From assembly GCF_030285785.1 (NCBI RefSeq), contig NZ_CP127247.1:4673501-4737500 (forward strand): 64,000 nt of DNA, given 5' to 3'. Below the pieces are notes generated by a model, which was not told where the DNA came from, did no database searches, and saw only the letters and a list, made by a program, of their open reading frames with translations. This document shows, piece by piece, positions 13,564 to 15,375 of this stretch. Source of the DNA: Parasedimentitalea psychrophila. Its GTDB lineage: Bacteria; Pseudomonadota; Alphaproteobacteria; Rhodobacterales; Rhodobacteraceae. Position 1 is the stretch's first letter; the number at the start of each line of letters is the position of its first letter. The position numbers were made by a program, and so were the translations under genes.

Positions 13564-14205
13564 TGCCGAATAGCTGTCGCCCCAATCGCATCATAAGCCG
13601 GGACGAAATGATCGAAAAGGTTTGGAATGGCAGGATCGTCTCAGAAACGGCTATCGGCTCGCGGATCAGTGCGGCGCTTGCTGCGATAGGCGGCAGTGGG
13701 CGGGCGCAACACTGCATCAAAACCGGGCCACGCAAAGGGTGCAGATTTATTGCATCGGTCCATTTCGATGATCCCGTTGAGAAGCCACAGATAGAGGTCA
13801 GGCAGACCCTTTCCGACAGTCAGAAAGTCTATTATTGTCAGTCGCGCGACGGCACAGACATTGCATATTCGCGCACGGGTCGCGGCTATCCGATGGTTCG
13901 GGTCGGGCATTGGCTGACCCATTTGGAATATGACTGGCGTAGCCCCATATGGCGCCCGTTTCAGGAGGCTTTGGGTCAAAGTTTTAGCCTGCACCGGTAT
14001 GATCAGCGTGGGTCAGGCCTATCGGCGCGGGATGTAACAGAGTTGTCATTGGCTCGGTTTACAGAGGAACTGGAAGCTGTTGTGGCGGCAACCGGGCTCG
14101 AACGGTTGCCGCTGACCGTCACAGGGCGCGCCTGTTGCAATCAGCTATGCCGCACAAAAGCCCGATCGAGTGAGCCATCTGATCTTGCAAGGGGAATATG
14201 ACGTT
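13563..14205 (+). pseudogene. Truncated winged-helix regulator / alpha-beta hydrolase fusion
   Basis: From about 13577 the protein reads as the second half of an OmpR/CadC-type winged helix (RIISRDEMIEKVWNGR, ETAIGSRISAALAAIG, then GCRFI). An alpha/beta hydrolase start follows (YSRTGRGYPMV, YDQRGSGLSARD). The beginning of the wHTH domain is missing. Near 14120-14135 a frameshift occurs: the expected PVAISYAAQKPDRVSHLILQ continues in another frame to 14205. The IS element at 14206 then cuts it off. The family joins a DNA-binding domain to a hydrolase domain in one chain. The gene is not functional. Confidence 0.65.
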
Positions 14206-14511
14206 GGCTTTGTTGCACAAATCGGATTGCGTCTGGACTTCTCCTTACCCCTGACGGATTTATCCTACGGTAACAGTTTCGGGTATGCCAAGTGCTGTGA
14301 ATCCGTTTAGGATCGCAGCACGAATTTGGATCTCCGCAACCTGCCTATCAAAGTCTCGCGCAGAGGGGCGCTGACCCAGCAGTTTCACACAGTGCTTTTT
14401 TATCTCCACGCAGCTTTGGCGGTGGTATCCGGTCAGTTGTCGCCACAATGCGCGGCCCAGATACTTTGAGGAACGGACCGCGTCCGTTTCGCGCCCTGGC
14501 CCCGGGCGTGT

Positions 14512-14550
14512 CCATTGCACGGCAGTGCATGTCTGCATGCACGAGAGGCG
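14512..14550 (-). repeat. Double-hairpin insertion element, copy C
   Basis: The minus strand reads CCTCTCG, a hairpin GTGCATGCAGACATGCAC, then CTGCCGTGCAATGG. It matches copy A (14744-14782) closely and interrupts the transposase remnant between PPRKNAKLWE and PGARAR. Confidence 0.65.
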
Positions 14551-14642
14551 GGCTCCCATAACTTGGCGTTCTTGCGTGGCGGGACCGCCATGCTTGCGTG
14601 CGTTCCACTCGCCCTCCCCCTCGGCTTTGATGCCAGTGCTAT

Positions 14643-14680
14643 CCACTGCCTGGCAGTCGTTGCTTGCAGCGATGAGAGGG
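14643..14680 (-). repeat. Double-hairpin insertion element, copy B
   Basis: The minus strand begins CCCTCTC and ends CTGCCAGGCAGTGG, the same termini as copy A. The central hairpin differs (CGCTGCAAGCAACG). Its 38-nt size breaks the transposase frame between PLHLLI and DSTGIK. Confidence 0.65.
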
Positions 14681-14743
14681 GATCAGAAGGTGCAATGGTC
14701 CCGGTGAACTCCGGTATGGAATGGCAACCGACAACGTCTTCTG

Positions 14744-14782
14744 TCCCTCTCGTGCATGTAAACATGCACTGCCAGGCAGTGG
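14744..14782 (+). repeat. Double-hairpin insertion element, copy A
   Basis: The plus strand reads CCCTCTCGTGCATG, TAAA, CATGCAC, then the perfect palindrome CACTGCCAGGCAGTG. It lies in the opposite orientation to copies B and C. It adds about 13 in-frame codons to the transposase between STLCR and QKTLS. Confidence 0.65.
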
Positions 14783-15140
14783 GCGACACAAGGTGCTGAA
14801 ATCGGGCACCGCCCAGTCAAGCCCGACCAGTTCCAGTAGGCTTTCCACAAACCCGGTCGCCTGCCTCAAAGGCAAGCCGAACAGCACTTTGATGGTCAGG
14901 CAGGCTTGTATCGCCGCATCGCCATAAACCTGCTGACGTCCACGTTGGCCTGACGGCTTCGCCTCCCACGCCATCTCTGTGTCAAACCAGATTGATAAAG
15001 ACCCGCGCCGCTTCAGGGAAAGGATATAGGTCGACCAGTTCTTGGTCTTATAAGTCGTCGGTGTCCAGCTGCTCATGACCGCCAGATATCACGCTGGATT
15101 CACGAGATGAATCCCCTCAATCGATTTGTGCAACAAGGCC

Positions 15141-15375
15141 GTGGTCGACCTCTTTTCCCGCCGCAGCATCGGCCCGCTCTCGGTGATGCATGCATCATCA
15201 GACGGTAACGGGGTTAATGCAGAGCAGGACATGCAAAACCAGAGAACCCGCAAGGCACGATATCTTCGGCGACATCGAGATGTTCTATAATTCGAGGCGC
15301 AAACACGCTAGCAACGGGATGCTGTCGCCAGTAGCCTTGGAAAGACAGCAGGCACGGAAGCTGCAAGGCAGCTAG
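15141..15375 (+). pseudogene. IS3-family transposase (OrfB) remnant
   Basis: Directly after the IS5 end the sequence reads VVDLFSRRSIGPLSV, typical of the integrase core of IS3-family OrfB. After a gap and frame change it continues FGDIEMFYNSRRKHASNGMLSPVALE, the usual C-terminus, with a stop at 15375. Most of the gene is missing. Confidence 0.75.

Follow-up and report, generated by a model that had tools for sequence, protein, structure and literature searches.

Very small hairpin-forming mobile sequences form a widespread family found largely within other mobile elements in marine bacteria

The genome of Parasedimentitalea psychrophila (GCF_030285785.1) contains, within a stretch of 64,000 nucleotides of contig NZ_CP127247.1 (positions 4,673,501 to 4,737,500; hereafter the window), a transposase remnant whose recognizable peptides are interrupted by three short, related segments. 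The locus raises the question of whether these segments are native parts of the transposon or insertions and, if they are insertions, what kind of sequence they represent. The remnant is an IS5-group insertion sequence (IS) with a broken transposase on the minus strand (14205–15142), which carries terminal inverted repeats at 14206–14224 and 15122–15140 that are 95% complementary, matches DDE_Tnp_1_5 (PF13737) in 14639–15076 (E 3.6e-34), and has relatives at other sites of the genome. Apart from the three segments it shows further decay, since a comparison by BLAST pieces with the copy at locus L004 reveals a gap of about 220 nt in the middle of its transposase. Copy A of the segment (14513–14548, minus strand) reads CCTCTC GTGCATG CAGA CATGCAC TGCCGTGCA ATG, constitutes an insert of about 37 nt, and splits the peptide KLWE/PGAR. 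Copy B (14644–14681, minus strand) reads CCCCTCTC ATCGCTG CAAG CAACGAC TGCCAGGCA GTG and splits LLI/DSTG, and copy C (14746–14781, plus strand), with the sequence CCTCTC GTGCATG TAAA CATGCAC TGCCAGGCA GTG, is 36 nt long and splits FSTLCR/QKTL. Copies A and B break the reading frame, and copy C leaves it open (ORF 14639–15076). An initial annotation of this DNA had described three related segments inside one transposase remnant and named STLCR/QKT, PLHLLI/DSTG, and LWE/PGAR as the interrupted peptides; both statements were borne out, the intact relatives L095 and L096 being uninterrupted at these places. Its size of about 39 nt belongs to real inserts that proved to be 36–38 nt long, and its claim that copy A is inverted relative to B and C was wrong, as A and B share one orientation and C is inverted. 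Of the two hairpins that it assigned to each copy, the first forms a sound 7-bp stem in A and C, as read from their sequences, and is degenerate in B, where 5 of 7 pairs are left; the second is limited to a 3-bp core (TGC-CGG-GCA).

Alignment of the window IS with relatives in the same genome that lack the three segments upheld the idea of insertion, and the segments are real insertions rather than native parts of the IS. Copy A is without counterpart in the IS copies L004, L005, and L006, whereas the IS copy L003/L034 is filled at this site by an element with an identical stem. Copy B is also absent from L004–L006, as well as from L097 (the same IS as L002), where the matched flanks are 92% identical over 64 nt and 96% over 24 nt; in other IS lineages its site is occupied by other stems. 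Copy C is absent from L097/L002, in which the empty site reads TTTCTGTC^GTCGACAC between matched flanks of 92% over 64 nt and 97% over 98 nt. When the window was searched for the core-half pattern with up to 3 mismatches, 5 matches were obtained, all within copies A–C, compared to 0.55 expected and to 0 of 100 shuffles that reached 5. Folding as single strands distinguished the window copies little or not at all from shuffled sequences (z -1.33 to +0.22), and two intact copies from elsewhere folded better (z -2.23 and -3.69). The IS copies at L208 and L163 are filled at both the copy A and copy B sites, one with unlike and the other with similar stems (pS 0.44, pN/pS 0.16).

A comparison of the window IS with its own genome found the segments elsewhere, and a strict pattern consisting of CCTCTC, 13–27 bases, and TGCCGGGCA matched 97 times in this genome and once in the reversed control. 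The family consensus is (C)CCTCTC-R-stem-loop-Y-TGCCGGGCA-RYG, in which TGCCGGGCA is the second, minimal hairpin, and elements are mostly 36–43 nt long. With many copies beyond the window IS, in its own and in other genomes, and with IS relatives that lack the segments, the suggestion of a small mobile element made in the initial annotation is supported; neither of the two outcomes that it had named as refuting was observed. All fetched loci were then scanned with a structural grammar of our own making, which yielded 313 occurrences representing 248 distinct element sequences, once seven implausible rows had been removed by eye (L033:1184, L018:1406, L110:2217, L119:7520, L121:2085, L121:2760, and L170:6701) and with at least one doubtful row kept (L320:5288, which is absent from alignment A1, below). 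The grammar misses diverged copies such as window copy A, in which the core TGCCGTGCA is diverged. Its reversed-sequence controls gave 1 match in 393 kb, 8 in 550 kb, and 11 in the 1.88 Mb of all loci. Element lengths fall into all classes modulo 3 (158, 117, and 38). Most loci had been chosen for their matches to the element or to ISs that host it and are therefore non-random; in an even sample of the chromosome (20 stretches of 12 kb, 240 kb), 4 stretches contained the 10 grammar hits obtained, of which 9 are well formed, with 0 in the reversed control. These numbers suggest about 180 elements, clustered, on the chromosome of P. psychrophila. The element-bearing stretches of the even sample have a G+C content below that of most others.

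Two main length classes were recognized: a stem region of 18 nt corresponds to a 7-bp stem with a 4-nt loop, and one of 22 nt to a 9-bp stem with one bulged base. Stems overall comprise 7 bp with a 4-nt loop, 9–10 bp with one bulge, and intermediates. For each main class an alignment was assembled from sequences picked to thin near-duplicates (A1, 61 of 93 distinct sequences; A2, 38 of 53). Among the 61 elements of the 22-nt class, 95.5% of cells are paired and 100 cells show double changes, compared to 28.2 in shuffles, with none of 500 shuffles as high; the double changes are spread over 8 of the 9 pairs of the first stem. The 38 elements of the 18-nt class gave 54 double-change cells compared to 14.8, again with 0 of 500 shuffles as high, and further pair types were less striking (1 and 71 of 500 shuffles as high). 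The stem is free in sequence and its pairing is under selection, and the case for structure is made chiefly by this covariation across copies, not by folding energy. Covariation is no test of the second hairpin, which hardly varies. Across the inner pairs of 184 distinct stems, read on the listed strand, there are 1268 Watson-Crick pairs, 20 G.T, 39 A.C, and 38 other mismatches. The lack of a G.T preference on the listed strand fits a constraint on DNA rather than RNA for that strand; the excess of A.C over G.T (39 versus 20, p 0.018) would read as tolerated wobble, compatible with an RNA constraint, if the opposite strand were considered.

The distribution of the element was examined with several searches. 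The strict pattern was matched in 38 of 101 genomes, including that of P. psychrophila, which has the most matches, and the single strict matches outside Rhodobacteraceae mostly look like chance when inspected by eye. A covariance model built from 61 elements matched at least 114 of 295 Rhodobacteraceae genomes, taken at one per genus and with up to 22 candidates scored in each. At least 119 matching stretches were found in a genome collection, and among the 80 matches listed 73 are from Rhodobacteraceae or Rhodobacterales according to their titles; the remaining ones listed are from Vreelandella neptunia (two rows on one contig), an unclassified alphaproteobacterial metagenome-assembled genome (MAG), three other MAGs, and Enemella. 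A search with one element sequence matched 100 plasmid records, and the ten genus names found among the matches listed (60 rows) are ones that we take to be Roseobacter-group genera; 39 of the plasmid records are from Pseudosulfitobacter. The same kind of search with one element sequence gave no match in a phage collection. The exact pattern was matched in four viral contigs (L354, L355, L356, and L357), each with a well-formed element. The two Vreelandella neptunia HM116 loci (L102 and L131), on one contig, have the element pattern outside the main family, perhaps on transferred DNA. These sequences are a family of mobile, hairpin-forming units of very small size that is widespread in marine bacteria and sits for the most part within other mobile elements.

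To define the insertion borders, filled sites were compared with empty ones in 15 rows with matched flanks of at least 90% identity, some rows representing the same site. The borders are exact or near-exact. At L042:1537 and its empty counterpart L247, the flanks are 100% identical over 100 nt on each side and the site reads GTACGTCC^GATCAGAC; further empty-site junctions are GAAACCAT^GACGAACA, CGAAACGAA^GATGCATT, and AATC^CATGAGCC. No target duplication was seen by eye in the 15 rows. One C at the left edge or one G at the right edge may be shared with the target, and usually no more than one base is shared or changed, with a few pairs showing changed bases at the left edge and a few showing more than one changed base at an edge (e.g., L224 versus L223). 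Insertion is thus precise, without target duplication, and recent, as IS copies that are identical in the 100-nt flanks compared occur with and without the element. Across 195 unique sites, the right side of the target has G at a frequency of 0.80, then A at 0.69, T at 0.59 or C at 0.27 (T/C 0.86), and G at 0.62, with little beyond, and the left side is chiefly C; the target is one-sided, a preference for ^G-A-Y-G that is not fixed. Relative to the transposase gene, 64 elements are in the sense and 49 in the antisense orientation. IS200/IS605 elements favor one replication strand, and a hand count of strict matches over the two halves of the chromosome defined by GC skew gave 29 plus and 31 minus in one and 17 and 20 in the other, which is no bias; transposition of the host ISs would blur such a signal.

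The neighborhood of the elements is rich in transposase genes. Of the 195 unique sites, 113 lie within 250 nt of a transposase as judged with 22 transposase references, compared to 27 of 926 positions away from elements, an enrichment that is inflated and partly circular as some of the references come from element-bearing loci. A Pfam scan of 50 ORFs adjoining elements gave matches for 26 and none for 24. Transposases or IS proteins account for 22 of the matches and a phage integrase for one; the remaining three include a weak YscW match in an antisense frame. These ORFs derive from two scans (30 ORFs from 40 sites drawn and 20 from 32 sites listed) and were selected by length or codon composition, so that some are probably in wrong frames. 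By our mapping of Pfam names, the hosts include IS3, IS4/5, IS91, IS630, IS256, IS21, IS66, IS6, and Mu types, and IS110 and IS30 hosts were recognized by eye from their proteins. At 49 recurrent sites, more than one stem sequence was found in 38 and a different stem length in 14. The site LLI^DSTG, at which window copy B also lies, has six occurrences with five stems in one cluster, and VTA^DGAYD has five occurrences with five stems; both precede an aspartate codon, which fits the ^GAY target.

Some ISs have multiplied while carrying 1–5 elements in or beside their transposase genes, and in doing so the elements hitch-hike with them. L038 and L084 share 1021 bp at 98.4% identity with five elements. 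One IS5-type IS is present in 8 full copies, four with two elements, four with one, and none empty, and an IS110 is present in 4 full copies and 1 split copy. Each of these IS110 copies has two elements, of which one lies within the transposase gene and the other 3' of it. Example loci are L042:1069-1995 (C1:445321) for the IS5-type IS and L074:655-2097 (C1:3448054) for the IS110. Distant relatives of this IS110 (69–75%) include L223, in which the site within the transposase gene is empty. In genome G020, six IS3 copies carry three elements each, and no full unfilled copy was found there. An IS30 of P. psychrophila has five filled copies and one empty copy (L226). Filled ISs that have multiplied imply either that the transposase was supplied in trans or that the insert does not abolish its function.

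Tests for selection on the filled transposases gave mixed results. For four filled IS30 copies compared with the near-ancestral empty copy, there are 30 synonymous and 22 nonsynonymous changes, fewer of the latter than under neutrality (S 30 : N 22; upstream of the element 14:3, downstream 16:19; p 3e-7 with no transition correction), a count that leaves out the fifth filled copy, L078, which has a stop, and the end of one copy after a frameshift. L078 looks relaxed, with pN/pS of 0.57–0.79 in pairs. In a tree of the IS30 copies, the filled copies of P. psychrophila group apart (support 0.97) with a filled copy from G002 outside, a topology from which the stem may have entered the same site twice or may have been moved by recombination. 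The IS110 copies show few changes (e.g., S 5 : N 1 and S 4 : N 0), and the IS5-type copies, with 0–3 S and 0–2 N per pair, show too few to judge. Other filled families are near neutral, with S 4 : N 8 for L038/L084, S 2 : N 5 for G020, and S 11.3 : N 28.7 for G122, whose alignment is partly poor. With elements masked, 8 of 11 filled copies of the IS5 group are without a stop in the aligned codons, and many filled copies carry stops.

The element was compared with known classes of small repeats and mobile sequences. Cyanobacterial small dispersed repeats (SDRs) are reportedly very small (21–27 nt), mobile, precisely inserted, and structured with compensatory changes. They differ from the present element in phylum and in sequence, and we know of no description of an association with ISs or of a ^GAYG target for them. 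The SDR work is Elhai et al. (2008, Genome Res 18:1484), as cited in PMC3116915. REP and REPIN sequences are described, in PMC3733652 and PMC2817692, as small palindromic repeats of 20–40 bp with high copy number. The present element resembles them in being small, palindromic, and abundant and differs in that it often lies inside genes and that the genome of P. psychrophila has no Y1 transposase; a GTAG or GGAG tag, anywhere and on either strand, was found in only 9 and 8 of the 248 distinct elements, respectively. IS200/IS605 elements have hairpin ends and a one-sided short target. According to PMC2817692, they lack terminal inverted repeats and produce no larger target duplication. The element shares with them hairpins near the ends, of which the first stem covaries, the absence of target duplication, and a one-sided preference for a short target, and differs from them in its total length of about 40 nt, its free stem sequence, and the absence of a Y1 gene from its own genome and from the vicinity of elements in the loci examined.

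The palindromic elements of Rickettsia, which the initial annotation had invoked for comparison, are, according to PMC10969869, about 150 bp long and endowed with an ORF, and for nearly half of them a fusion to the product of the host gene is possible. The likeness is superficial: both are palindromic and found inside genes, but the present elements measure about 40 nt, are mostly not a multiple of three in length, and lie largely beside transposase genes. Membership in that family was rejected on the basis of size (mostly 36–43 nt), of lengths in all classes modulo 3, and of the occurrence of both orientations. Miniature inverted-repeat elements (MITEs) have, according to the same paper, terminal inverted repeats of about 4–30 bp, direct repeats when young, and a normally intergenic location. 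The present element is likewise short, non-autonomous, and presumably moved in trans; it is not a MITE, as its ends match at 1–5 of the first 8 bases (mostly 2; 248 distinct elements) and no target duplication occurs in the 15 rows. The core motif of integron attC sites, GTTRRRY, is present in 0 of the 248 distinct elements on either strand, and attC membership was rejected. Rfam matched none of the elements in nine loci, where only a 16S rRNA was found, or in the window IS. Fungal mitochondrial double-hairpin elements and bypassing elements (byps) also place two hairpins in tens of nucleotides within genes; they are organellar, and their sequence and target are unlike those of the present element, for which any bypass is a candidate only. 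No prior description of the element was found in open-licence papers, a body of work that excludes most of the subscription literature.

The reading that we prefer, with middling confidence and from sequence comparison, is that the family comprises very small non-autonomous mobile elements of Rhodobacteraceae, which an enzyme supplied in trans would move in the form of a folded single strand. One DNA strand of the element would fold into hairpins, the enzyme would recognize the fixed arms together with the fold, and the element would be cut out and pasted at ^GAYG in a manner similar to the handling of IS200/IS605 ends, with ISs probably serving as safe landing sites and vehicles. No mobilizing enzyme was found. 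Y1_Tnp has 0 matches in the genome of P. psychrophila; it is present in 14 of the 61 genomes examined for it, and four of the six genomes that have at least 10 strict element matches are among these 14; six Y1 loci examined in other genomes contain no element. Y2_Tnp (IS91-type) was found in 12 of 101 genomes. That of P. psychrophila is one of them, with 4 matches of which three are full-length, and of the same six element-rich genomes G000, G006, G007, and G014 have it and G002 and G020 do not; Y2_Tnp is only a lead toward the mobilizing enzyme. Made up of two fixed arms and a paired stem of free sequence in about 40 nt, such a mobile unit would rank among the smallest transposable units known, and its abundance in a major marine bacterial family, largely within transposons, would make it a parasite or passenger of mobile DNA.

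The multiplication of ISs with several inserts in their transposase genes raises the question of whether these genes are expressed despite the inserts or the enzyme is supplied in trans. It is possible, though improbable, that filled transposases still work through bypass or removal of the element at expression, whether by translational hopping, RNA removal, or frequent precise excision from DNA. The IS5-type, IS110, G020 IS3, and L038/L084 families, all multiplied with elements in or beside the transposase gene, speak for such a process, as do the 8 of 11 IS5-group copies that are free of stops when masked and the predominance of synonymous changes in IS30 and, among few changes, in IS110. 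Against it stand the near-neutral L038/L084, G020, and G122 families, the scarcity of changes in the IS5-type copies, the relaxed L078, the stops in many filled copies, and the weaker IS30 signal downstream of the element; the occurrence of every length class modulo 3 in both orientations corresponds to no single known bypass rule, and the empty IS30 (L226) and distant empty IS110 (L223) of P. psychrophila could provide transposase in trans. The related and doubtful proposal that the elements are transparent micro-inserts beside conserved codons, such as the GAY of LLI^DSTG and VTA^DGAYD, would have them removed or bypassed in expression, or excising precisely and often, with a host IS that works. 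If true, such inserts would be a bacterial counterpart of introns and byps, 40 nt in size, in both orientations, and independent of frame. Judged by eye, a hop during translation between take-off and landing codons that match would suit one site (GTG/GTG at HAV^DAIGRP, L042) and not others, and was rejected as a general rule.

Movement of a folded RNA that is reverse-spliced or ligated into RNA, or reverse-transcribed, and returned to DNA would account for the strong covariation and the lack of target duplication, and, seen from the opposite strand, the A.C excess of the listed one becomes an excess of G.T (39 versus 20). We nevertheless regard this retro-type route as doubtful, as the elements occur in both orientations to host genes (64 and 49), unlike insertion into mRNA, and wobble pairs are rare beside 1268 Watson-Crick pairs. 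Size, hairpins, copy number, absent target duplication, and the presence of Y1_Tnp in four of the six element-rich genomes are shared with REP/REPIN-type repeats moved by a REP-associated Y1 transposase; that origin is very unlikely given that the genome richest in strict matches among the 101 has no Y1_Tnp, that GTAG and GGAG tags are so infrequent, that elements often lie inside genes, and that the six Y1 loci are without them. Old, immobile insertions that persist and spread only with their carrier ISs would explain the many copies in multiplied ISs and the finding of the copy A stem in a second IS copy at the corresponding site, but are contradicted by the filled and empty L042 and L247 with identical flanks, by the different stems per site, and by the 195 unique targets, and we consider this explanation highly improbable. 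Chance hairpins or normal IS parts have next to no probability, being refuted by the empty relatives and the genome-wide copies, and nothing was found in their favor.

Movement as a folded strand remains our preferred reading, and two further observations concern the fate of elements once inserted. The IS110 copies L076 and L088 have 19 differences in 1445 positions, 7 of which are in elements, and at L076:1595-1634 the element stem differs from that in the near-identical IS110s L074 and L088 by compensating changes. This comparison suggests that an element was replaced or changed rapidly in place. In addition, L048:1637 has a left flank in common with L018:2009 and L026:1574 and a different element and right flank, and 91 pairs that share one flank only were counted; elements may mark recombination junctions between ISs.
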